A stretch of DNA of 64,000 bases from Vibrio spartinae (lineage in GTDB: Bacteria; Pseudomonadota; Gammaproteobacteria; Enterobacterales; Vibrionaceae): NCBI RefSeq assembly GCF_024347135.1, contig NZ_AP024908.1:744001-808000 (forward strand), in the 5' to 3' direction. Shown here piece by piece: positions 5,692-61,743 of this stretch (position 1 is its first letter; each line of letters opens with the position of its first letter). The position numbers and the translations under genes were made by a program. The notes under the pieces were generated by a model, which did not search any database, was not told the DNA's origin, and saw only the letters and a list, made by a program, of their open reading frames with translations.

Positions 5692-6552
5692 ATGAGTGAG
5701 AACCAATACGTACCACCTAAAGTCTGGAAGAATGAACCAAGTTCAGGGAATCAATGGGCGAATATTAACCGTCCGGAAGCAGGGGCAAGATTTGAGAAAG
5801 ATCTGCCTGTTGGTGGGCACCCATTCCAACTTTATTCATTAGGTACACCGAACGGCCAAAAAGTCACAATCCTGTTTGAAGAGCTATTAGCATTGGGCAT
5901 TAAAGCAGCCGAATATGACGCTCATCTCATTAACATCGGAGACTCTGAGCAATTTTCATCGGGATTCGTTGCCGTCAATCCAAACTCAAAAATCCCTGCT
6001 TTGGTTGATAACTCAGGAGATGAAGCTGTTAACGTGTTTGAGTCAGCTTCTATATTGGTCCACCTTGCTGAAAAATTTGGCAAGTTTTTACCGACAAGTG
6101 GTTCAGCAAGAACTCAAACATTGAACTGGTTGTTTTGGGCGCAAGGCTCCGCACCGTTTTTAGGCGGTGGTTTTGGTCATTTCTATGCGTATGCCGATGA
6201 AAAACAAGAGTATCCGATTAACCGTTTCGCGATGGAAGTGAAACGCCAGTTAGATGTGTTAGATAAACAACTCGCAGAAAATACTTACGTGGCTGGTGAG
6301 GAATATACCATTGCGGATATGGCCATTTGGCCGTGGTATGGCAACCTTGTGTTAGGTCAGGCATATAACGCTGCTGAGTTTTTACAGGCTCAGACATACG
6401 AGCATGTTGTCCGTTGGGCAAAACAAATTGAAGCTCGTGAAGCCGTCCAGCGTGGCCGTATTGTCAACCGTACGTTTGGTGAAGAATGGGAACAATTGGC
6501 TGAAAGACATAGCGCAGAAGATATTGATAAAGCTCTGAAACTAAAACCATAG
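5692..6552 (+). CDS. yghU: Glutathione S-transferase, YghU type
   Basis: This 286-residue protein closely follows E. coli YghU as I remember it: QLYSLGTPNGQKVTI then LEELLALGI in the thioredoxin-like N-terminal half, VNPNSKIPAL before the cis-proline, and NWLFWAQGSAPFLGGGFGHF in the helical half. YghU proteins are Nu-class GSTs that bind two glutathiones and have disulfide reductase activity. The frame extends 24 codons upstream to 5620, but the Shine-Dalgarno AAGGGGAAA sits directly before the ATG at 5692, which also matches the family start. It is a single gene with its own terminator. Confidence 0.93.
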   Translation: MSENQYVPPKVWKNEPSSGNQWANINRPEAGARFEKDLPVGGHPFQLYSLGTPNGQKVTILFEELLALGIKAAEYDAHLINIGDSEQFSSGFVAVNPNSKIPALVDNSGDEAVNVFESASILVHLAEKFGKFLPTSGSARTQTLNWLFWAQGSAPFLGGGFGHFYAYADEKQEYPINRFAMEVKRQLDVLDKQLAENTYVAGEEYTIADMAIWPWYGNLVLGQAYNAAEFLQAQTYEHVVRWAKQIEAREAVQRGRIVNRTFGEEWEQLAERHSAEDIDKALKLKP

Positions 6553-6564
6553 AACAATTCAATC

Positions 6565-6590
6565 AAGCGCACTTGTGAGAGTGCGCTTTT
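6565..6590 (+). terminator. Rho-independent terminator after yghU
   Basis: The stem AAGCGCACT/AGTGCGCTT has a 6-nt loop and a short T-run, 13 bases after the stop codon. Confidence 0.85.
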
Positions 6591-6787
6591 ATTCATGACA
6601 AATTGGTCTGCTCATATGCTGAGTCAGGACGCCATTCCCCGCTGTTCAAATCATTCTCCCTCGCTATCGATCACTCGATAAATATATTGCTTTTCTCTAA
6701 TGAAGTATTAGAATCCGCGTCGTTTTGATGCTGTCAAACAACCAACACGACAGTTTATTCCTCATCTATTTGTAAAGGTAAGTATTC

Positions 6788-7786: not shown

Positions 7787-8551
7787 ATGTCAAACTTATA
7801 TTTAAAACAGGTTTTATGCCTTATTCCGGTATCATGCTTAATCGCTTTTCCGGGATATGCTGCAGAAAATGACTTCTCACTCGGTCTCGGTGCTGCATAT
7901 TCAACGTCAACTTATAAAGATTATGATGAAAATGTCTTTCCGCTACCGATAGTCAATTACGATAATAAGGTTTTCTTTGTTCATGGACTCTCAGCTGGGG
8001 CCTACTTGTATCAGGATGAATACAATGTGTTACAAGCGTCTGTGTCTTACTATGCTCAGGAGTTCGATCCGGATGATGCCAACAATAGCCAAATGAAATT
8101 GTTGGACAAAAGAGACAGCACAGCGATGGGCGCAATCTCTTATACATTTCGCTCCCCACTTGGAAATATCACTTCCTCGCTTGCGATCGATGTTCTCGAT
8201 GAAAGCGATGGCGGCATGATTGCTTCCGCACAATATAATTATCCAATTCCTTTTACTCAGCAATTAACCATCATTCCTGAAGCAGGTATCAAATATAGCA
8301 ACAGTGATTTGAACCAGCATTATTATGGTGTCAGTTCAAGCGAATCGGCGCGGAGTGGATTAACAGCTTATGATCCCGGCAGTGCAGTCACACCTTATTT
8401 CGGCGTCGCATTCAGATATAATGTTTCTGATACTTTAAGTGCATTTATTGCCAGCCGTTATCAAGTATTACCCGACGAAATCCAAGATAGTCCAATGGTT
8501 GATTCTAGTCACACCATTCAAACAAGTGCTGGTATTTCTTATCGCTTTTAA
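7787..8551 (+). CDS. MipA/OmpV family outer-membrane protein
   Basis: This 254-residue outer-membrane beta-barrel has a signal peptide (hydrophobic residues about 7-22, cleavage after GYAA), the family opening FSLGLGAAYSTSTYKDYDEN, and a C-terminus ending in aromatic ISYRF, the usual barrel-assembly signal. Alternating beta-strand patterning runs through the protein. MipA/OmpV proteins are described as scaffolds for peptidoglycan enzymes or as osmoregulated porins, and the sequence does not say which applies. The start follows AGGAGCTTTA. It is monocistronic, with a terminator directly after it. Confidence 0.88.
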   Translation: MSNLYLKQVLCLIPVSCLIAFPGYAAENDFSLGLGAAYSTSTYKDYDENVFPLPIVNYDNKVFFVHGLSAGAYLYQDEYNVLQASVSYYAQEFDPDDANNSQMKLLDKRDSTAMGAISYTFRSPLGNITSSLAIDVLDESDGGMIASAQYNYPIPFTQQLTIIPEAGIKYSNSDLNQHYYGVSSSESARSGLTAYDPGSAVTPYFGVAFRYNVSDTLSAFIASRYQVLPDEIQDSPMVDSSHTIQTSAGISYRF

Positions 8552-8564
8552 TTGCATAAAAACC

Positions 8565-8598
8565 AAAACAGAGAGTCAATCGACTCTCTGTTTTTTTT
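8565..8598. terminator. Terminator shared by ompV-like gene and viaA
   Basis: The stem AACAGAGAGTC/GACTCTCTGTT with a 4-nt loop is followed by eight Ts on the plus strand, with As on the other side. Confidence 0.88.
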
Positions 8599-8624
8599 AA
8601 ATGATTTGCTGTTTTTAAATAAAG

Positions 8625-10085
8625 TCATCTGACAGACGAACGACTTTTTATCAAACGACCGATAATACCGGGATAATAACGCCAGTTGTAATCAAATATT
8701 TCCATTAATTGTGGGTTCCCATAGCGAGAAAGGCTAATGGCATGAAAACGATTATGCTGTGCCTTTAGCGTATTGATTGCTTCATTTAACTCTTGAGAAG
8801 GTTTCGGTGCCATAAAATCAGAAATCACCACCAAATCAGCATTCTTATATCGATCACTGTGCATGGTCTTAATCGCATCCGATAATGCCAGTTCTAGGTC
8901 AGTGCCGCCTTTAAAGGTATAACTCAGAAAGTCACAAACTTCCCTCAGCCCATCTTGCTTCGTTAGTTGATAGGTAATGATTTGTGTTGAGAAAATCACA
9001 ACATAGCAGTCCCGGTTATCCGCCAGAGCAATCTGCATCAAAGCATAGGCGACCGCTTTGGCACACTGCTCCGGAAACCCGTTCATCGAACCGGACGCAT
9101 CAATACACACCACAAACGGCCCTTTTTCAATATCCACTTGAGCATTGGCTGGTTTTGTCGTGGTCACTTTTGATAATGTTCGCGATTTACCCTGCATACG
9201 ATAGTTCAACAACCGCTTATCAATCAAATGCTTATAAAAAATCACTTCCAGCTCAGGATGTGCTAAAAATAGCATCTCATTGGGAAGAATTTTATTCAAA
9301 TCATCACTCTGATGGACACCAACAATATCGTCGGTGGCCTGATCAGATTGTTCTTCAACCAACTGTAGTGTTTCGACACTTGCCTGCTGCAGATCAGGAT
9401 CATCCACCTCGCTGGCCATACGACCAAGATTTTCAGCGATCTGTTGAATTTCCTTATGTTTTTTAAGAAATTCAGCATGTTTTTTCATCACGGTCAAATC
9501 AACTTTGCCTAACTTGGCACCGGCCATATTCCACAAACGGCGGATACTTTTTATATCGTCGGTATCCGTGACTTGATCCATAGAGCGCAGTGTTTCAATC
9601 CGCTTATATAAGTCGTCCAATACCTTATCTTTATTCGCTTCCAGCTCCATCACCTGCGCCTGTTTGAGCGCATTGGATAAACTGTTATACCATTGATCGC
9701 AAAAGTAATGGGGAAACATCGGATTACTGAAATTTTTCTTTTGCCCACATAACTGGCGGGCGGTGGTATAAAATGCAGAATGCCATTCAAGTTGTTGTAA
9801 CACCTCAGGGATTTTCTGAAAAAATGTCTTTTCATCCCAATGAATCACTTCCTGATATAACGCTAATTCCTGTTGAAATCGCTCCGTTTCACAAACATTG
9901 GTCATTCTTTTCTTCACCTGACCACGCCACTTGAGCAAATGATTTTGTACCGAAGTATTCACACCTCGGTTTTCAACCGCGATCAACAGCTGAATGTTGT
10001 CCATCAGTTCATTCACCGCGGTATCAATTAAACCCGAATCGGCGATTATCATTGCGAGATTTAGTCCGTCAACACCTAACATCAC
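8625..10085 (-). CDS. viaA: VWA-domain protein ViaA
   Basis: This 486-residue protein has a helical N-terminal half and a C-terminal von Willebrand A domain with the MIDAS motif DASGSMNG (about residues 331-338), the conserved threonine in FKGGTDLELAL and the aspartate in VVISDFMAP. ViaA partners the MoxR-type ATPase RavA, and in E. coli the pair is linked to aminoglycoside uptake, respiratory complexes and membrane lipids. Here viaA follows ravA after 6 bases, as expected for a co-translated pair. The length agrees with E. coli ViaA (about 480). Confidence 0.93.
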   Translation of the reverse strand: MMLGVDGLNLAMIIADSGLIDTAVNELMDNIQLLIAVENRGVNTSVQNHLLKWRGQVKKRMTNVCETERFQQELALYQEVIHWDEKTFFQKIPEVLQQLEWHSAFYTTARQLCGQKKNFSNPMFPHYFCDQWYNSLSNALKQAQVMELEANKDKVLDDLYKRIETLRSMDQVTDTDDIKSIRRLWNMAGAKLGKVDLTVMKKHAEFLKKHKEIQQIAENLGRMASEVDDPDLQQASVETLQLVEEQSDQATDDIVGVHQSDDLNKILPNEMLFLAHPELEVIFYKHLIDKRLLNYRMQGKSRTLSKVTTTKPANAQVDIEKGPFVVCIDASGSMNGFPEQCAKAVAYALMQIALADNRDCYVVIFSTQIITYQLTKQDGLREVCDFLSYTFKGGTDLELALSDAIKTMHSDRYKNADLVVISDFMAPKPSQELNEAINTLKAQHNRFHAISLSRYGNPQLMEIFDYNWRYYPGIIGRLIKSRSSVR

Positions 10086-10091
10086 AATCTC

Positions 10092-11759
10092 CTAAGCGAA
10101 ATACTGACCGAAATGATTCATCTGCTGAGCGGCTTCTTCACTCGCAGTAATTGATTGCTCCAACTGTTGTTGTAATTGCTGTAATGAACTTTCCATCGCC
10201 ACAGGCAGCTCAGGATCGATGAAATGATGTGGCAATGCATCATGAAACTGCCGAGATGCCTGACGTAAATGCGTGGCGGCTTGCGCCAATTGATGATGAA
10301 CCTGTTCAATCCGTGTTTGCCATGCCTGAAAGAGTTGATGCTGATTTTGATGTTGTGTCGTCACGACAGAAACCAGTACCGAACGATTGGCAATATCTTT
10401 GATAATCAACAAGTCTTCTGAGTCAACGCCAAACTGAAAAGAACAAAGGGTGGTATTTTGGTTCACATAACCGAATAGCTCACCGCCCCCTTCGCGGATA
10501 ACCTTGTCAAACTCGGCTTTAGGGACATAAACCCAATGACAATACTTATCAGTATTCTCTGCATCGGTGACAGTTGTATGACTTTGGAGTAACACGATTT
10601 TGAGGAGATCTTTGCGATTACCGGATTGATATGTCTTCGCATGTGTCAAATCATAGCTATAGACCTGTTTCTTAATCAACCCTGCGGTTTTCTCAACCGC
10701 CAACGGCATTGTATATTTCTCTTCCAGTTCTCGTTGAATATCGGTCAACGCTTCCTGACCGATCTCCATTTGGTGCTCAACATCCTGCTGATCAAACGCA
10801 TATTTCAACGCAAACTCACGAATTACGTCCTTCACAATGGCAAGAGAATCAGGGCTATTCCACAAACAATCCTGTAACAGAAACAGATCCAGTGGATTAA
10901 TGCTGTCACGACCGTTAAAGAAAGCACAGGCTTTGAGCAGTTTGACGGCTTTTTTCCAACGTCGGTCAGAAACATACATCTCATCAGATGTCGTCAATGT
11001 ACTGTTTTCCGCTGCTGTATCAAGCATTGACTTGAGCTGGTAGAGTTTTTCAAAAACATCGTTACTCAACGTCAATTGGTCTAATGCCTGCTGCCACTCA
11101 TGATATTCCTGATCGGTAATCGCCAATCCTTCTGGAATATGGGCTTCTTGCGGTGTACCCACCGTCAGCATCGACTTAAAATTTTGTTTATCCTGGATGC
11201 GATTGACAAAGATCCGCACCAGAATCCGGTCAAATAACGCTTCCAGACCACTGTCTTTATCTGGTAACTCATTCGATGCCGACACCAACAGACGCATGGG
11301 TACTCGCTCAACTTCACTACCGTTGTTGAACGTTTTTTCATTCACGACCGTCAGCAATGTATTCAAGATAGCGGGGCCGGCTTTCCAGATTTCATCTAAG
11401 AAAACGACCTGAGCCGTGGGTAGATAACCTTTGGTTAACCGAAGGTAACGTCCGTTATCCTTTAATTCTTGAATGCTCAAGGGGCCGAACACCTCTTCAG
11501 GCGTTGAAAAACGCGTCATGAGGTATTCGAAATAAGAACTATTTTCGAAAGCTTGAATCAGACGTTTCGCAATCAAACTCTTTGCTATACCGGGAGGCCC
11601 CAACAGAAACACACTCTCACCAGCAAGGGCAGAAAGCAGACAAATTTTAATCGCGTGCTCCCGTTCATAGACACCATCAGCCAGTGCTCTGGCTAATTTA
11701 TTGATTCTTTCTGACAGCAACGCCTTCTGCGAATGACTCGCAGGAATTGAACTTACCAT
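10092..11759 (-). CDS. ravA: MoxR-family AAA+ ATPase RavA
   Basis: This protein has about 555 residues. The AAA+ module carries a Walker A in FLLGPPGIAKSL, Walker B VVFLDEIWKAGPAIL, sensor 1 LLVSASNELPD and the segment YVSDRRWKKA. It is followed by a long C-terminal region corresponding to the LARA/helical domains of RavA, with a Gln-rich coiled-coil-like end. RavA forms hexamers, interacts with ViaA and, in E. coli, with the lysine decarboxylase LdcI. The frame reaches ATG 11816, but alignment with E. coli RavA (start shortly before LLAERI) favours the ATG at 11759. No strong Shine-Dalgarno is visible at either. Confidence 0.92.
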   Translation of the reverse strand: MVSSIPASHSQKALLSERINKLARALADGVYEREHAIKICLLSALAGESVFLLGPPGIAKSLIAKRLIQAFENSSYFEYLMTRFSTPEEVFGPLSIQELKDNGRYLRLTKGYLPTAQVVFLDEIWKAGPAILNTLLTVVNEKTFNNGSEVERVPMRLLVSASNELPDKDSGLEALFDRILVRIFVNRIQDKQNFKSMLTVGTPQEAHIPEGLAITDQEYHEWQQALDQLTLSNDVFEKLYQLKSMLDTAAENSTLTTSDEMYVSDRRWKKAVKLLKACAFFNGRDSINPLDLFLLQDCLWNSPDSLAIVKDVIREFALKYAFDQQDVEHQMEIGQEALTDIQRELEEKYTMPLAVEKTAGLIKKQVYSYDLTHAKTYQSGNRKDLLKIVLLQSHTTVTDAENTDKYCHWVYVPKAEFDKVIREGGGELFGYVNQNTTLCSFQFGVDSEDLLIIKDIANRSVLVSVVTTQHQNQHQLFQAWQTRIEQVHHQLAQAATHLRQASRQFHDALPHHFIDPELPVAMESSLQQLQQQLEQSITASEEAAQQMNHFGQYFA

Positions 11760-12077
11760 GAAATGACTCACTAGATTCACAAGATACTGAGCTCTTGTTG
11801 TAATATTTTTATACAACTTCAGTTTATTATAATTTTATCGTTTTGTTAATTAGATGTTGCACAAGATTTAATTTGTACTGTTGTTTTTATATCAGATTCA
11901 TAATTCGTGCGATTGGTTGAAACCTATGTTTCCAAATATGAGTTCTGTATCATTATCAACACTGAGATTTATTCAAACTAAAAGCCTTTATTTTTGAGTG
12001 TCATAGCGGTATCGTTTCTCCAAGAATACCCGATCACATTTCCGAGCCATCACAGGCCGGATAAGTCAAAGGACTGC

Positions 12078-12593
12078 ATGCGTAAAACGATACATCAGTG
12101 GAAACAGATTTCTTTGGTTGAAGAAGAAATCATGCTACCAACCCACCATCCAATCCTTCATACGACGATCATTCATCCCGGAGCCGCGGTGATCCTGCCT
12201 GTCAATCAACAGGGAGAGATTGTCATGTTACGACAATTCCGCCCATCAATTCGAAAATGGCTCCTCGAATTACCCGCCGGTACCCGCGAAGCGCCAGAGA
12301 CACCACTGGCATGTGCACAACGAGAACTCGCTGAAGAAACGGGCTACCTTGCCAGCGAGTGGGTCGCTTTAGGGCAATTAACCCCGCTTGCCGGCTTTTG
12401 TGATGAAATTCAGCATCTGTTTGTGGCCAAAGGTCTCTCTGTGACACAAGATTACCAACGCGACGATGATGAGGTCATTGAGATCTTCTGCCTGTCCGTT
12501 CAAGCGCTGGAAAAAAAGATTATCGATGGTGAAATTACGGATACCAAAACCATCGCTTGTCTGAGTAAAGCCAAGCTTTGTGGCTATCTATGA
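12078..12593 (+). CDS. Nudix hydrolase, ADP-ribose pyrophosphatase-like
   Basis: This 171-residue protein has the sequence IVMLRQFRPSIRKWLLELPAG before a Nudix box around ACAQRELAEETGY, the layout of the NudF/ADP-sugar pyrophosphatase group in which an aromatic strand and ELPAG precede the box. It probably hydrolyses ADP-ribose or another nucleoside diphosphate sugar. The frame is open from 11994, but the ATG at 12078 has AAAGGA just upstream and matches the family length. It diverges from ravA across about 300 bases of AT-rich promoter region. The TetR gene follows after about 120 bases. Confidence 0.87.
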   Translation: MRKTIHQWKQISLVEEEIMLPTHHPILHTTIIHPGAAVILPVNQQGEIVMLRQFRPSIRKWLLELPAGTREAPETPLACAQRELAEETGYLASEWVALGQLTPLAGFCDEIQHLFVAKGLSVTQDYQRDDDEVIEIFCLSVQALEKKIIDGEITDTKTIACLSKAKLCGYL

Positions 12594-12712
12594 TAGCGAC
12601 TTATCAGTTGTCCCGTTGATAAATCGGAATACCATCAAAACAGCGCGCTCAAAAGTTGGATACAATTGGGGAAACGCTCAACACTGGAATCTCTCAACAC
12701 CAAAACATCGAA

Positions 12713-13444
12713 ATGACCATAAAAAGACAAGGGCGTCGAAGCGCTCACGATGCTGAACTGACGCGCCAGCAAATTTTACGAATTGCAACTGAGCTGTTTT
12801 GTGAGTTTGGTTATGCGCAAGTCTCGCTGCGAACCATCAGCGAAAAAGTAGGCATTTCACACAGCCTGATTCGCCACCATTTTGGCAGTAAAGAACAAAT
12901 CTGGTATTGCATTAACGACAACATGCATCAATTCATTACCCACTATTGTCAAACCATACTGATGCATTTATCCAAAGACATACCAGTCAATGAACTCCTT
13001 TATCAGTTTATTGTTCGGATGCTGGCTTTCACTCTCATGAACAAACAACCGATCCAGTTGATGGCAGATGTGGTGCGCCAAAAAGGCAGCAGATTCGACT
13101 ATTTCATTGATCAGTCCGGTGAAGTGGAGAAACTGATTTCCCATCTGGCTGAAGATTACAACCAACGTTTCCCGAAACGCGCCATTAAAATTTGGGAAAT
13201 TAAATGGCACATGATCATGTTTGCCCACGGTGCCGCCTCTCTGGGCCCTTTCTTGAATGAAACCTGGTCACAGGAATGTGATACTGAAAACGAATGTCTA
13301 TTGAAACATTGGCAGATGTGCGATGAAATCATGGCGAGAAAATTGATGATACCCGCGTCATCCCGTTTACAGCCTCAACAGCTTGACGAACTGGTCATTC
13401 AACTGGACGAGTCATACCCTACAACCCAAGTAAGGTCGATTTAA
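12713..13444 (+). CDS. TetR/AcrR family transcriptional regulator
   Basis: The N-terminal HTH is clear: TRQQILRIATELFCEFGYAQVSLRTISEKVGISHSLIRHHFGSKEQIW in pattern (residues about 15-62). The C-terminal ligand domain is unrecognised. The protein has about 243 residues from the ATG at 12713. The frame extends to 12656 through a TTG, but that part does not look like TetR sequence. No clear Shine-Dalgarno supports either start. The target is unknown: neighbours are the Nudix gene upstream and the convergent galE. The paired palindromes just downstream (13473-13501) could be binding sites, but their position after the gene makes this doubtful. Confidence 0.85.
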   Translation: MTIKRQGRRSAHDAELTRQQILRIATELFCEFGYAQVSLRTISEKVGISHSLIRHHFGSKEQIWYCINDNMHQFITHYCQTILMHLSKDIPVNELLYQFIVRMLAFTLMNKQPIQLMADVVRQKGSRFDYFIDQSGEVEKLISHLAEDYNQRFPKRAIKIWEIKWHMIMFAHGAASLGPFLNETWSQECDTENECLLKHWQMCDEIMARKLMIPASSRLQPQQLDELVIQLDESYPTTQVRSI

Positions 13445-56312: not shown

Positions 56313-56336
56313 AAAAGGAGCAGCTATGCTCCTTTT
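56313..56336. terminator. Terminator of the four-gene operon
   Basis: The stem AAAAGGAGCA/TGCTCCTTTT with a 4-nt loop is followed by TTTTTA on the minus strand; it can also act on the plus strand. Confidence 0.8.
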
Positions 56337-56429: not shown

Positions 56430-56993
56430 CTAATTGTATGTGTTGAACAACCTGTCGCCCGTATCAGGCCCCTTCCCATTTGAAATAACCTGAACCTTCG
56501 CTCCCTCATATTTGTTACTTGAAACTCGCACAGTATACAAATCGTGACTTTTAAGTAATTCTGTAGAAGTGCTTGGGATGACCGTTGTAACAAGTTTTAT
56601 AGGGTTAGTGTCTGGCAGTTGCTCAATCAAACTAAATACACTTTTCCCCGAATTTATAACAGCATCAACAATGATGATTTCTTTTCCTTTAACCAGTTCT
56701 AGATCTTCTTTAGAAATCTTATCATCGCTAACAAAAATGATTGATACAGTTCCGCCAAGTTGTTCTAGCTTGTCAGCAATACCATTACCAAAGCACAGAC
56801 CTGCACGCATCAGAATCAGTACAGCATAGTTTTGCTGATGATTCGAAGACTGTGAGATTGGTTTTGCAATGATCTCACCTAGCTGATAGTGTGCGTTTCG
56901 AAGTTTGTAGCCCATCGACATTGAACTGCTTTTACAAATCTCAATCAGTTGATCAAAACTATGCTTTTGAGTGCTTTCATTTAATATATACAT
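56430..56993 (-). CDS. Uracil-phosphoribosyltransferase-like protein
   Basis: This 187-residue cytoplasmic PRTase-fold protein has the UPRT-like sequence VLILMRAGLCFGNGIADKL (about 58-76). The PRPP-binding loop is in IIIVDAVINSGKS (106-118), and the C-terminal GPDTGDRLF (175-183) parallels the GDAGDRxFGT end of E. coli Upp. Genuine Upp proteins are about 208 residues and have GLGDAGDR, so this is a divergent member whose base or acceptor may differ from uracil. It is last in the operon, two bases after the kinase-HAD gene. Like its partners it is visibly AT-rich. Confidence 0.8.
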   Translation of the reverse strand: MYILNESTQKHSFDQLIEICKSSSMSMGYKLRNAHYQLGEIIAKPISQSSNHQQNYAVLILMRAGLCFGNGIADKLEQLGGTVSIIFVSDDKISKEDLELVKGKEIIIVDAVINSGKSVFSLIEQLPDTNPIKLVTTVIPSTSTELLKSHDLYTVRVSSNKYEGAKVQVISNGKGPDTGDRLFNTYN

Positions 56994-56995
56994 AA

Positions 56996-58258
56996 TTATG
57001 CTTCTTCTAATTCACAACATCTTTTAAGGTTATAAGATACTTCAACGTCAAATAGTTGATCGATATTTGTACATCCTACTCTAGCTATGTAAGACTCCAC
57101 AGCTTTGTTCAATTTTTCGTGAGCGACCAAATACCCTTGATTTGCTATTTCTAACATTGGAATGTCAATCATCGAATCACCAATAGCTACTACGTGTTTG
57201 CCTTTGTCTCTTAGTCGCTGCGCTATTGCTTTCTTGAAATATGGAGTTACAAGGTATTCAAGTTCTGGTTTACTTGTGTTGCCTAACAAAACATCAAAAA
57301 TTTTATATTTGTCATTAACTAAAGTCCAAATATCAAATACACCTGAAGTAACACCAATAACAACAGAATCTTTCTGACACCTTAAGTATTCGAAAACATT
57401 CTGACTTAGATATATATTATCCAAGGCTTGATTAGCGGATTCTTCTACTTTTATAGGGCTTTGCTTTTTGTACATATTCCATACTTTAAAAAATTGGTAT
57501 GACGTATATCTATCATTTCTAAATACAGATTTTAATTTTTCTTTCCTGATTCCCAATTTTTCACAAAAATCATATGTACCATCATTAATTGAAACTGTTT
57601 TGTCACAGTCAATAAGTATAATCTGTGTTGGTTTTTCTAGTAACTCTTGGTATTCAGTATAAAACTTATTAGCGAAGGTTTGACTACAAAGTTTTGATGA
57701 GTATGAGTCCAACCAATAATAAATAAATTGAACGCTAGATTTAGTATCTTCATCTAAGATAACTAACTCTTTGTGATGATAATTGCAGATCTTATCTAGT
57801 TCATTTTTTTCAAACTCTTTCCAATTTCGTACCTGACCTTCAGTAATATCTAAATTTTTTCTATCACCTTTGCTTTTTCTTGAAAATTCTACAATCATTT
57901 CTGATGGAGTATCCAAATAGAAGAAGTGATCGTAAACATTTTCATCTTGTTCAGTGAAGACTACTTTGTAAGAATCGCCATCTATAAAAGAATAGTGACC
58001 ATCTACTAGTACGAGATCGTATTCTGAATTTTTTTCATCCACTATTTCAGTAAATTTTTCTCGTAAAATTTTTTTGCTTGATTCTTCGAGACTTTTAAAA
58101 GGTTTTTGGAACATATCTTGAGCAATTTCATTCAATGTCTTTGAACCCTGAATATGAATAGCAGTTAACTGAGTAGTTTGCTGTAGATAGGCTATTACAT
58201 TGTTGATCAAATAATCTTTACCAGCTCTAGATACACCATAGATAGCTAACTTCATCAT
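56996..58258 (-). CDS. P-loop kinase-like domain fused to a HAD phosphatase
   Basis: The protein has 420 residues. The N-terminal half (1-195) starts with a P-loop, AIYGVSRAGKDYLI (residues 5-18), and has a Walker-B-like LVLVDGHYS (83-91), resembling nucleoside/nucleotide or adenylate-type kinases. The second half (about 210-400) is a HAD fold of SerB type: motif I IDCDKTVS (DxDxT, Asp217/Asp219), motif II VTSG, motif III lysine in YFKKAIAQRL, motif IV GDSMIDIPM (Asp361, Asp365). The fusion suggests phosphorylation and dephosphorylation of related metabolites. Its start overlaps the radical SAM stop by 4 bases. Confidence 0.8.
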   Translation of the reverse strand: MMKLAIYGVSRAGKDYLINNVIAYLQQTTQLTAIHIQGSKTLNEIAQDMFQKPFKSLEESSKKILREKFTEIVDEKNSEYDLVLVDGHYSFIDGDSYKVVFTEQDENVYDHFFYLDTPSEMIVEFSRKSKGDRKNLDITEGQVRNWKEFEKNELDKICNYHHKELVILDEDTKSSVQFIYYWLDSYSSKLCSQTFANKFYTEYQELLEKPTQIILIDCDKTVSINDGTYDFCEKLGIRKEKLKSVFRNDRYTSYQFFKVWNMYKKQSPIKVEESANQALDNIYLSQNVFEYLRCQKDSVVIGVTSGVFDIWTLVNDKYKIFDVLLGNTSKPELEYLVTPYFKKAIAQRLRDKGKHVVAIGDSMIDIPMLEIANQGYLVAHEKLNKAVESYIARVGCTNIDQLFDVEVSYNLKRCCELEEA

Positions 58259-59163
58259 TTAACCTCAACATACTTATCGTAGTAACATTCACCGTCCTCT
58301 AAAGGCTTCATCTTACCCATTTGAAACTCTAAATTTTCAAGATCCATATCGAATGCACCATAATTGTAACCTTCATTTCCATAGAACCTACCACACGGAT
58401 AGATGCCACGTTTAGTGATGAAGATATTTGTGCGACCTACTCCACAGAGCGTGCCATACATTGTACAGTCATATTTCTTTTTATTATTTTCATCGAGTTG
58501 GCGAACTTCAAACTGACTACCTTTGAAATCCTCAAGTAAGGATTGGTATTCGTCTTTTGATATAGTCATGCTCTCATCGTGAGAATCAAAAAGGCGCGAG
58601 AATGTTACATCTTTAAAGTTGTTGTATTCAAGATAATGTCTAAGTTTAGTTTTGTTTAAAATTGTTTTACTATGCACTGTACAGTTTATAGGAGGCTTAT
58701 GACCAAATTTAGACTCATACTTTTTTATACCTTTAAAAACAACGTTATATTTCTCTCTACCCAGATTATGAAGCTCTTCATAACCATCTAGTGAAAAACA
58801 CATTTTTATCGAATCCTGGTGGTCCAAGAAAAAACTTAATATCTTATCTGTTAATATTGTCCCATTTGTTATGGTATAAAATGCCAACCGATCCAGATTA
58901 TTTTGTTTTACATATTCGATAAGACTAACAATTTTTCTATATTGTAATATTGGCTCACCAGAACCAACTATCCCGATTTTGAATATTTTTAGCTTGTTAA
59001 CTACTGCATAGTCATTTAAATTTTTAGCTATTTTTATTAACTCATCAGTAGTAAACTCTTGTGGTATTCCACTTAACTTACCATTACCTTCATTATGAAA
59101 ATGGCAGTAAGCACACTTCAAGTTACACTTCTCACCAAGAGATATACAAGCTCGATCAATCAC
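58255..59163 (-). CDS. Radical SAM protein with SPASM-like C-terminus
   Basis: This 302-residue protein binds the SAM [4Fe-4S] cluster through CNLKCAYC (Cys13, 17, 20) in the canonical CxxxCxxC spacing; GSGEP (about 67-71) is the SAM-amino-group motif. The C-terminal region has Cys233, 240, 257 and 293, with CGVGRTNIFITKRGIYPCGR in the pattern of SPASM/twitch auxiliary-cluster domains. Such enzymes modify peptides, nucleosides or sugars; no precursor peptide is visible nearby. ATGA overlaps couple it to the genes on both sides. It is not viperin-like at the N-terminus. Confidence 0.85.
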   Translation of the reverse strand: MIDRACISLGEKCNLKCAYCHFHNEGNGKLSGIPQEFTTDELIKIAKNLNDYAVVNKLKIFKIGIVGSGEPILQYRKIVSLIEYVKQNNLDRLAFYTITNGTILTDKILSFFLDHQDSIKMCFSLDGYEELHNLGREKYNVVFKGIKKYESKFGHKPPINCTVHSKTILNKTKLRHYLEYNNFKDVTFSRLFDSHDESMTISKDEYQSLLEDFKGSQFEVRQLDENNKKKYDCTMYGTLCGVGRTNIFITKRGIYPCGRFYGNEGYNYGAFDMDLENLEFQMGKMKPLEDGECYYDKYVEVK

Positions 59164-60389
59164 TTCAACTTTCCTTTGAATAATTCAAATATCTCACTAC
59201 TTTTCAGATTATCAGTATCTAAATAGTCAATTGCAGTTTTGTTATTTCTACACCGAATCATCAAGTCTGTTTTATCTATTAACTTTTCGACCATTTCTAA
59301 ATTATGCTTAATACAAGCCTTCATTAAAGGTGTGTAACCATTATTATCTTGTTGGTTTGTACAAGAGTCGTGAGATAAAAAGTAATCTGCTGCTTGTAGA
59401 AACCCACTCCACGCAGCAATCATTAGTGGCGTATTCCCAGCATTCTTGCCTCCACTCCCAAAGTCAATATCAGCTCCGTTTTCGACCAATAGCTTTATCA
59501 CTTCGATTTCTTTTATCTGTGTAGCGTGATGAATGGCTGAGAATCCGTATTTGTGCTTATCTCTCACATCAAGGTTGATTTCTTTCAATGTGACAAGGTA
59601 TTTGATCATTGGTAAATCACGATTTCGTACAGCACACATCAATGGTGTTAAGCCACTATCAGGACTATGAAAATTGACATCAATGCCACGCATATCAAAC
59701 TCCATTATATGTTGAAGTTTCCTTCCTTTAACTAAAGAACCGAACTCAATAGAACGTACAACATCATAATCGTTGTCTGTGGTGTGAAACTTCTCTATAT
59801 AGATATTGGGGGTAATTGCTGTGAGATTTCTTGGCTCTCTTGTCAAGAACTGAAAATAGATATCATCACTTAGTAAATACACGTCATCGTAAGGGCAAGC
59901 TTTGGATCTCTTTATTGCTATATCAGCGATCTTTTCATCATTGTTTCCATCTGTTTTGAAGGCTTTTTCTATACAAAACTTTGCTTTCTTCTCAGTAATG
60001 GATTTCATTACCAACCAAGCTTTTTGTTTTGTAGAGGGGTTCCCTCTGTCTTTCAGGTTATTCAATTCTGAAATGACTACTTCTGGTATCACAACCTCCT
60101 CAAAAAACTCTTCAAGCTCATCAATGATCGATGGTCTTTTGATCAATGCAGAGGTATCTACAACGATAACTTTCTTCGTGATCGAAGTATTTCCAACTAA
60201 CTCATCAGTCGAAGTTTTGAATACTTTCGACAGTTTGAACAACTGAGACGAAGATGGCTCATTTTTTCCATTTTCCCAGTTTGATATCACAGGCCTAGCA
60301 ACGTTAAGTTGTTCTGCAAGTTCTTTTTGAGACAACTTTTTTTCATCTCTACATGCTTTGATGTTCTTTCCAATTAGCTCTGTCAGCAT
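59160..60389 (-). CDS. HTH-PIN-ankyrin repeat fusion protein
   Basis: The protein has 409 residues in three parts. An Xre-type HTH (about 5-62, LSQKELAEQLNVARPVISNW) is followed by a PIN domain (73-203) of the PhoH-associated kind. Its acidic residues look complete: Asp78 in VVDTSALI, Glu108 in VISELNNLKD, Asp151/156 in NNDEKIADIA, Asp175 in LLSDDIY. Four to five ankyrin repeats (about 246-395) follow, with TPLMCAV, SAIHHAT, TPLMIAA and TPLMKAC cores. It probably binds DNA, may cleave RNA, and senses a partner protein. It is first in the operon. No good Shine-Dalgarno is seen. Confidence 0.85.
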   Translation of the reverse strand: MLTELIGKNIKACRDEKKLSQKELAEQLNVARPVISNWENGKNEPSSSQLFKLSKVFKTSTDELVGNTSITKKVIVVDTSALIKRPSIIDELEEFFEEVVIPEVVISELNNLKDRGNPSTKQKAWLVMKSITEKKAKFCIEKAFKTDGNNDEKIADIAIKRSKACPYDDVYLLSDDIYFQFLTREPRNLTAITPNIYIEKFHTTDNDYDVVRSIEFGSLVKGRKLQHIMEFDMRGIDVNFHSPDSGLTPLMCAVRNRDLPMIKYLVTLKEINLDVRDKHKYGFSAIHHATQIKEIEVIKLLVENGADIDFGSGGKNAGNTPLMIAAWSGFLQAADYFLSHDSCTNQQDNNGYTPLMKACIKHNLEMVEKLIDKTDLMIRCRNNKTAIDYLDTDNLKSSEIFELFKGKLK

Positions 60390-60678
60390 AATTTACATTC
60401 ATATCCTTTGGCTATGCAATCAACGTCTTATGTGTATTGAAACATAACAGGCCGCTAGAAAAAGCACAAGGAGCAAGTCACTGATGTATAAATACTTTAC
60501 AGCGTGTAACTATGCGTGACACATTTCTTACTTACATAACTCTGAACATATACCCGTTTAAAGCCACTCTGACTATAAAATTTTCAGACAACTTCCAATT
60601 ATCAACTAAATTGCATACTTTTCTGCTCGGGAATCTGGTTGAATATATCTATGTGTCTGATCTTCAGGAAGTTTGGTT
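60390..60678. promoter_or_regulatory. Promoter region of the four-gene operon
   Basis: On the minus strand TTGTGC and TTATGT, 16 bp apart (about 60443-60470), are a possible promoter. An imperfect TGTA-N9-TACA dyad (60485-60501) could be an operator for the HTH protein. A 75-codon plus-strand frame (60512-60739) has no ribosome binding site and is not called. Confidence 0.3.
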
Positions 60679-61149: not shown

Positions 61150-61611
61150 CTAGTTCCTGCGGCCCGTAAACGGGCTACCTGAATACGGGATCGACAATTG
61201 CTCTCCCATTTTATCCTGCTCTAGTTGCTGCTTGATGTAATTTTGTATCTTGCTCGTATTCTTACCTACCGTATCTACATAATAACCTCGGCACCAAAAT
61301 TCTCGATTTCTATATTTAAACTTCAAATCCCCGAATCGTTCATAAAGCATTAGGCTACTTTTACCTTTCAAATACCCCATAAACCCTGAAATACTCATTT
61401 TGGGCGGTATTTCTAAAAGCATGTGGATATGATCCGCGCAACATTCCGCTTCAAGAATGTTCACATTTTTCCATTCACATAGTTTCCTTAATATTTCACC
61501 TATTGCTCTACGTTTTTCTCCGTAGAACACTTGCCTTCTATATTTCGGTGCAAAGACTATGTGGTATTTACAGTTCCAGCGCGTGTGCGCTAAGCTCTTT
61601 TCGTCCCCCAT
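61150..61611 (-). CDS. tnpA: IS200 transposase TnpA (Y1 HUH)
   Basis: This 153-residue Y1 transposase is nearly the same, as far as I remember it, as the enterobacterial IS200 protein: SLAHTRWNCKYHIVFAPKYR at the N-terminus, the HUH metal motif in DHIHMLLEIPP (about 60-70), and the catalytic tyrosine region REFWCRGYYVDTVGKNTSKI. It moves single-stranded DNA by peel-and-paste. The full length is intact. GGGGG lies just before the ATG, and GTCCC/GGGAC arms enclose the start codon, consistent with the translational repression known for IS200. Confidence 0.95.
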   Translation of the reverse strand: MGDEKSLAHTRWNCKYHIVFAPKYRRQVFYGEKRRAIGEILRKLCEWKNVNILEAECCADHIHMLLEIPPKMSISGFMGYLKGKSSLMLYERFGDLKFKYRNREFWCRGYYVDTVGKNTSKIQNYIKQQLEQDKMGEQLSIPYSGSPFTGRRN

Positions 61612-61720
61612 TGGGACCCCCTTTCAATTCTTAATTAATTCTTGTAGTTGCCAGACCACAAGACGTTTTTATCAAATTGAAAGGGGTTATATAACTGACT
61701 TATAGCTGTAAGCTTTACGG

Positions 61721-61743
61721 AACCCCCAGCCTAGCTGGGGGTT
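61721..61743. repeat. Subterminal hairpin, tnpA-proximal end of IS200
   Basis: A 10-bp stem AACCCCCAGC/GCTGGGGGTT with a 3-nt loop CTA; TTTTC follows on the plus strand. Confidence 0.85.

Follow-up and report, generated by a model that had tools for sequence, protein, structure and literature searches.

What does the compact operon at positions 56430 to 60389 of the window do? The window is the whole stretch analysed here, 64,000 nucleotides from Vibrio spartinae (contig NZ_AP024908.1, positions 744,001 to 808,000), and lies on the contig designated C2 (1.19 Mb) of a two-contig genome. The operon encodes a helix-turn-helix (HTH)-PIN-ankyrin protein, a radical S-adenosylmethionine (SAM) enzyme, a kinase fused to a HAD phosphatase (kinase-HAD) and an enzyme resembling uracil phosphoribosyltransferase (PRTase), and is a strong candidate for a bacterial self-defence system not yet described. 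We give a probability of about one half to the reading that it is a mobile four-gene conflict system, probably anti-phage, which combines nucleotide enzymes with a ligand-gated PIN RNase.

An earlier note on the same DNA had described four same-strand genes with junctions of 4, 4 and 2 bases, a terminator at the end and an AT-rich composition. All four open reading frames (ORFs) were on the minus strand, joined by a 4-base overlap, a second 4-base overlap and a 2-base gap. Folding placed a hairpin with a T-rich tail after the last gene, although the terminator was not listed by a pattern scan. Cassette G+C was 34.2%, versus 44.8% for window bases 1-53800. The contrast drawn in the note with ackA (about 58% from one sampled line) was unrepresentative, as 1-kb windows across ackA gave 43-47%. 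The domain names proposed there agreed with Pfam for HTH, PIN, ankyrin, radical SAM, HAD and UPRTase, and the kinase part was identified through an AlphaFold2 (AF2) model. The layout is as follows.

60390..60522, minus strand: upstream promoter/operator region, conserved in 5 of 6 Vibrio-family copies (not in locus L016)
59160..60389, minus strand: gene 1, XRE-type HTH-PIN-ankyrin protein, 409 aa (ORF and Pfam); proposed autorepressor and RNase effector
58255..59163, minus strand: gene 2, radical SAM enzyme, 302 aa, GTG start (ORF and Pfam)
56996..58258, minus strand: gene 3, P-loop domain like nucleoside monophosphate kinases fused to a HAD phosphatase, 420 aa
56430..56993, minus strand: gene 4, uracil-PRTase-like enzyme, 187 aa, with motifs like the phosphoribosyl pyrophosphate (PRPP) loop and C-terminal motifs like those of uracil PRTase
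56313..56336, minus strand: terminator-like hairpin after gene 4 (by folding; 10 pairs into the T-rich tail)

Conservation of the four genes as a unit

Loci were gathered by protein and profile searches with the kinase-HAD, plus radical SAM and PIN-ankyrin profiles on viral contigs. The set is a lower bound: the viral-contig scan with the radical SAM profile gave at least the matches listed, and the scan of genome contigs with two short patterns (8 loci) had limited sensitivity. Nineteen independent loci carried the kinase-HAD, 14 in genomes and five on IMG/VR viral contigs (L060, L061, L062, L064 and L135). The genome loci were those of the window, Enterovibrio (G036), Vibrio sp. HA2012 (G250), V. 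mimicus CAIM 602 (G288, locus L017), Lonepinella koalarum (G1011), Shewanella holmiensis (G503), Anaerobiospirillum (G554), G173, G091 and G366, two from Clostridia/Oscillospiraceae (L055 and L057), and two (G1377 and G1407) from a class sample around L057. The cassette thus ranges over Vibrio and relatives, Pasteurellaceae, Shewanella, Anaerobiospirillum, Clostridia and viral contigs, its most distant members being about 23-39% identical to the window proteins.

The note had held that its claim of a new system would fail if homologues were rarely neighbours. All four components stood side by side in 18 of the 19 loci, and the remaining one (G554) had three components and then the contig end. 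The PIN-ankyrin gene was present in all 19. One of the 18 complete loci, in V. mimicus, has a broken kinase-HAD gene beside uninterrupted PIN-ankyrin, radical SAM and PRTase genes (L017:9333-10582). Because gene order differs in L057, the linkage exceeds mere inherited order; the operon is a conserved unit, linked far beyond chance. Distant relatives of the radical SAM gene exist apart from the other three: on viral contig L063 (1501-3686), two adjacent, distantly related radical SAM genes were seen with the other parts absent within 6 kb.

Rarity, mobility and selection

The full-length kinase-HAD was found in 6/296 genomes of the window's family (counting the broken V. mimicus copy), 4/394 of the order, 2/398 of a phylum sample, 2/121 of the G366 family, 1/116 of the G503 family and 3/391 of the class sample around L057; the samples overlap, and each count includes its own or centre genome. 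In the phylum sample the profile matched 124 of 398 genomes, with full length in two (its own genome and G366). The next match scored 32.2 bits and, among the matches listed, all others began at profile position 208 or later, in the HAD part; weak HAD-only matches, including those in G196 and G320, were left out of the counts.

Upstream of gene 1, pairwise matches of 133-143 bp ending at the gene start were shared by 5 of the 6 Vibrio-family copies (longer in two pairs), and L016 had matching stretches of 26-43 bp only. Past this region, short flanks were common to two pairs only (the window with L013, and L014 with L017), and the Vibrio-family copies therefore occupy several genomic places. 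Of the 16 loci compared (all except L135, L136 and L137), 14 had a cassette G+C below that of their flanks, barely so in L058, and two, L057 and L059, had one above it. Direct repeats flank two cassettes: a 62-bp repeat (95%) of terminator-like sequence in G173 (L015, cassette 8447-12393), and a 527-bp repeat (97%) at 6239-6766 and 11386-11912 in G366 (L019), the right copy of which lies inside a gene for an AraC/DJ-1-type regulator. The rnf/nth flank of the G173 cassette was present in 59 of 61 genomes; its right flank had no match in 6 kb from five of those genomes, which gave no clean empty site. For the window's chemotaxis-gene flank, the matches listed in relatives were about 320 bp or less. 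Searches of plasmid and phage record collections returned no match to the kinase-HAD, and 17 plasmid and 6 phage records matching the radical SAM protein at less than 32% identity among the matches listed. Of 20 gene-by-pair comparisons among Vibrio-family copies, 18 gave a ratio of nonsynonymous to synonymous substitution (dN/dS) of 0.05-0.29 and two were saturated; all four genes are therefore maintained by purifying selection. The four genes are a linked unit that has spread by horizontal transfer.

The HTH-PIN-ankyrin protein

Three domains were placed on gene 1 by Pfam.

60198..60362, minus strand: HTH_3 domain, aa 10-64 (1.1e-17)
59856..60167, minus strand: PIN domain (PIN_4), aa 75-178 (4e-12)
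59190..59690, minus strand: ankyrin repeats (Ank_2), aa ~234-400 (4e-26)

Twenty PIN-ankyrin proteins from the 19 loci were aligned, two of them from L061. The PIN acids D78, E108, D151 and D176 were kept in 19, 20, 19 and 20 of the 20. The sole exception was one of two tandem copies in L061 (7480-9983): the HTH-bearing copy carries D78H and D151K and keeps its HTH and ankyrin parts, and is followed by an HTH-less copy with all four acids. Regulator and nuclease thus appear to have split into separate proteins in this locus. The HTH was also absent from the L059 protein.

In the ankyrin part, H288, N316, N319, N345, D348, N350 and K357, apart from structural Gly and Thr, did not vary in any of the 20 proteins, and position 327 was always aromatic (W in 17, F in 2, Y in 1). 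These residues fall on positions 2, 3, 5 and 13 of the ankyrin numbering, among others, and on position 10 of two repeats; positions 2, 3, 5 and 13 are among those varied in designed ankyrin proteins. They are still present in the L061 copy that lost its PIN acids. We read the conserved polar and aromatic residues as a putative binding site for a ligand, and its partner could instead be a protein or RNA.

Proposed mechanism

The note had suggested that the three enzymes could make or trim a modified nucleotide or ribosylated metabolite, and that the first protein could respond to this product or to a partner. Its unit, composition and mobility are borne out by the loci above; the metabolite and the role we infer as follows. 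As their families and folds suggest, the PRTase would join a base to PRPP to give a pyrimidine-like nucleoside monophosphate, the adenylate-kinase-like domain would phosphorylate this product, the radical SAM enzyme would alter the nucleotide or its precursor, and the HAD phosphatase would trim it. Judging by conservation, the product would bind the polar/aromatic ankyrin patch and, once bound, gate both the PIN RNase and repression by the HTH, which would give autoregulation of the operon. Infection would then release RNA cleavage and arrest growth. Activation of the RNase by the ligand, rather than inhibition, is the direction that we tentatively favour.

The same anatomy would serve a metabolic toxin-antitoxin system, in which steady synthesis by the enzymes supplies a ligand that keeps the PIN RNase inactive, until phage or stress disturbs PRPP, SAM, Fe-S or nucleotide pools, ligand levels drop and the RNase is freed. 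The tight packing of RNase and enzyme genes, the regulator-type HTH on the first gene and the upstream region kept in five of six Vibrio-family copies are all consistent with such a system. The V. mimicus locus tells weakly against it: an RNase without its enzymes would be expected to be lethal, yet the PIN-ankyrin gene is kept there beside the broken kinase-HAD. We consider this the best-surviving alternative, although an unlikely one.

The radical SAM enzyme

The radical SAM protein (Pfam Radical_SAM, 2e-10) has C13, C17 and C20, together with C233, C240, C257 and C293, invariant in 12 of 12 aligned proteins. Its closest fold and sequence matches were the anSME/SPASM enzymes anSME, CteB and ChlB, and three of its four auxiliary cysteines aligned with anSME cysteines, which gives it an anSME/SPASM-type core with auxiliary-cluster cysteines. 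A full SPASM domain has seven auxiliary cysteines; this set was not present in the 12 aligned proteins, where the conserved auxiliary cysteines number four and extras occur only in L059, near its C-terminus. MoaA ranked below the anSME/SPASM enzymes in the profile and fold lists, and that reading was rejected.

An anSME-like enzyme could instead mature the PIN-ankyrin protein itself, with the nucleotide enzymes performing a separate step such as sensing or cofactor supply. Besides the best matches and aligned cysteines just given, the spacing of the genes counts in its favour: at 12 of the 14 loci with measured gaps, these were too small for a precursor peptide gene, and the wider gaps were in L057 (72 bp) and L061 (182 bp). 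For the same reason, a cluster for ribosomally synthesised and post-translationally modified peptides was set aside, although the flanks were not searched for small ORFs. In anSME, the Asp that directly follows the third aligned auxiliary cysteine is the catalytic base for formylglycine formation. No acid followed this cysteine in the 12 aligned proteins (Gly258 and Arg259 stand there in the window protein), and no Cys or Ser was invariant across the 20 PIN-ankyrin proteins. Both points speak against maturation, which we hold to be quite improbable.

A viperin-like enzyme might make a modified nucleotide that poisons phage polymerases, leaving the PIN-ankyrin protein mainly as regulator. PADLOC holds a kinase-associated viperin class, and the radical SAM protein matched its viperin profile weakly (1.6e-14), as it did other radical SAM enzyme profiles; the L061 copy that kept HTH and ankyrin parts after losing two PIN acids would also fit. 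The viperin reading of the enzyme was rejected, however: viperin ranked well below anSME/SPASM enzymes in the profile and fold lists, and the protein scored 50.1 bits against viperin model NF038283 (cut-off 180). A mainly regulatory role is also at odds with the retention of each PIN acid by at least 19 of the 20 proteins and with L059, which lacks the HTH altogether. We regard an antimetabolite as very doubtful.

The kinase-HAD and PRTase enzymes

Gene 3 encodes two domains.

57704..58258, minus strand: kinase domain, aa 1-185, archaeal adenylate-kinase fold
57044..57637, minus strand: HAD domain, aa 208-405, SerB-like

The kinase part had no Pfam family above cut-off and took an archaeal adenylate-kinase fold in the AF2 model; adenylate kinases and SerB came first among the fold matches. 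The HAD part was recognised by Pfam (HAD, 9e-8), and its D217, D219, T221, K342 and D365 were invariant in 12 of 12 aligned. The PRTase matched Pfam UPRTase (8e-11; 42.2 bits versus a gathering score of 27), and its PRPP loop and C-terminal base-binding motif aligned to 1o5o, placing it in the uracil-PRTase fold family; against the NCBIfam upp equivalog TIGR01091 it reached 22.1 bits versus a curated 208.35. Kinase-HAD and PRTase are one chain in the clostridial loci L055 and L057.

The same pair of enzymes occurs in an antibiotic cluster: an excerpt of PMC8724604 states that MinC (HAD) and MinD (UPRT) jointly give minimycin self-resistance. A mobile nucleoside-antibiotic or salvage pathway with housekeeping or self-resistance parts of this kind could be supposed here too, and a gene that resembles ATP-binding cassette (ABC) transporters by eye adjoins the L137 cassette. 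Against this stand the lack of an exporter in the unit common to the loci, the PIN-ankyrin gene in 19 of 19 loci and the defence neighbours at some of them (below), and we regard it as highly improbable. Damage and repair of RNA, with the PIN domain cutting and the kinase-HAD healing ends as in T4 Pnkp, whose kinase-then-HAD domain order it has, was set aside as scarcely credible, since the top fold matches are adenylate kinases and SerB. No Pnkp was among the matches listed, an absence that does not exclude it.

Comparison with known systems

The note had claimed no named system, and none came to light. No PADLOC-DB 2.0 system model was matched by the four proteins as a set, the matches being partial or generic ones to ankyrin, HTH and radical SAM core (for protein 4, among the best 25 of 28 families); among the NCBIfam matches listed, no family reached its cut-off for the cassette proteins; and no description of the four-gene set was found in the parts of the openly licensed PubMed Central (PMC) literature covered.

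In animals, OAS and RNase L offer the closest logic. RNase L recognises 2',5'-oligoadenylate (2-5A) through ankyrin repeats, and the residues that take part include W60 and K89 in repeat 2 (PMC5927464, in part). The cassette protein likewise joins ankyrin repeats to an RNase and conserves an aromatic residue, Lys and His in its ankyrin part. It differs in having PIN in place of the RNase L nuclease, and the cassette has neither pseudokinase nor OAS-type synthase: Pfam found HTH, PIN and ankyrin families only in the PIN-ankyrin protein, with no RNase L pseudokinase or nuclease domain, and no nucleotidyltransferase-fold 2-5A synthase among the four proteins. The likeness is one of logic, not homology, and 1wdy (RNase L) was one among many ankyrin matches.

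The nearest published idea, in the passages of PMC7824862 that cite Anantharaman 2012, is that of Ter modules, where PRTases and HAD phosphatases are proposed to make a nucleoside-derived signal alongside ligand-binding sensor domains. The Ter parts named in those passages are TerB/TerD, TerC, TelA and TerF vWA, with no radical SAM, PIN or ankyrin; Pfam found no TerD, TerB, TerC or TerF among the four proteins, and the flanks were not searched for them. Prokaryotic viperins (pVips) are radical SAM enzymes that turn NTP into ddhNTP and are sometimes found with kinases; the cassette enzyme differs in its auxiliary-cluster cysteines and better anSME/SPASM match, and in belonging to a four-gene unit with a PIN protein. 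Cyclic-oligonucleotide-based antiphage signalling systems (CBASS) and type III CRISPR ring-nucleotide signalling share the switching of a nuclease by a nucleotide ligand that is proposed here, but no cyclase or polymerase family was among the four proteins, and Pfam, NCBIfam and PADLOC found no CD-NTase cyclase in them. XRE-PIN toxin-antitoxin arrangements comprise an HTH plus PIN, with autoregulation likely; the cassette differs in carrying HTH, PIN and ankyrin on one chain and three enzymes in the unit.

A nucleotide signal that gates a nuclease is logic of a known kind; for the cassette's list of parts no precedent came to light in the sources covered. As a tentative and less probable extension of the conflict-system reading, the cassette might be a bacterial OAS-RNase L analogue built from unrelated parts, in which a radical-SAM-modified pyrimidine nucleotide, a new class of immune second messenger, binds the ankyrin pocket and switches the PIN RNase, with a NERD protein as second effector under the same operator in one branch. 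If so, radical SAM and phosphoribosyl transfer would be new chemistry in bacterial nucleotide signalling, and an ankyrin-gated RNase would seem to have arisen separately in bacteria and animals. Whether or not the signal reading is right, an unnamed four-gene unit so closely linked in Gammaproteobacteria, Clostridia and viral contigs alike offers an obvious subject for phage assays and metabolomics.

Neighbourhoods of the relatives

Neighbours (114 proteins from 15 loci) were scanned against defence families, taking the best 25 of 171, and targeted scans then placed some matches. L057 adjoins genes of Druantia, DruE (E = 0) and, by a weak match, DruD; next to L059 are the methyltransferase and specificity subunit of type I restriction, along with a UG5-nitrilase reverse transcriptase; and L019 has a PDC-S01 candidate defence gene about 4.8 kb off. 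A known or candidate defence neighbour was thereby placed in 3 of 11 genome loci scanned, G1377 and most of the G1407 flanks lying outside the scan. On the viral contigs, L060 has a terminase large subunit gene on one side and, on the other, a portal-like gene (30.3 bits in Pfam, where the cut-off is 39.1) with a minor head protein after it. Tail/lysin genes border L061 at one end and large serine recombinases at the other, and serine recombinases also occur close to L062 and L064. The note had pictured a defence-like, mobile setting. Such a setting was seen in relatives beside Druantia, type I restriction, phage genes and recombinases; eight flanking proteins of the window itself gave no defence match. 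The setting is supportive of a conflict role, not decisive: the neighbour counts have no random-gene background, and the viral loci come from a viral collection.

Homologous genes of 326-390 aa, NERD-type, lie beside the cassette in six loci.

L057:8797-9846: NERD-type neighbour gene
L061:12507-13679: NERD-type neighbour gene
L062:4998-5978: NERD-type neighbour gene
L064:13101-14165: NERD-type neighbour gene
L135:12445-13527: NERD-type neighbour gene
L136:160-1278: NERD-type neighbour gene

Pfam found the NERD domain in the three scanned singly (L057, L135 and L136). In L135, the PIN-ankyrin and NERD genes are both preceded by a 70-bp repeat that contains, as judged by eye, an inverted repeat; as a shared operator it scored 64 versus 28 for the best of 100 shuffles. 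No significant repeat was found in L061, L062, L064, L136 or L057. The NERD protein may act as an effector regulated together with the cassette, or may belong to the element that carries it. The ABC-transporter-like gene of L137 lies downstream of the cassette (11021-12772); its PADLOC mad3 match covered 96 residues only, and it was not counted as a defence gene.

Surroundings of the operon in the window

A promoter scan gave 11 sites versus a shuffle mean of 20. The cassette is bordered on one side by a chemotaxis receptor and on the other by an IS200 transposase with a match to STnc490 RNA, beyond which lies the gene that the note calls ackA. The IS200 neighbour named in the earlier note was confirmed as a Y1_Tnp transposase (61150-61611; 1.5e-39). 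The STnc490 RNA family match (113 bits) adjoins this IS200-type Y1 transposase, with a joint span of 61150-61743 on the minus strand, and the matching RNA may be part of the insertion sequence.

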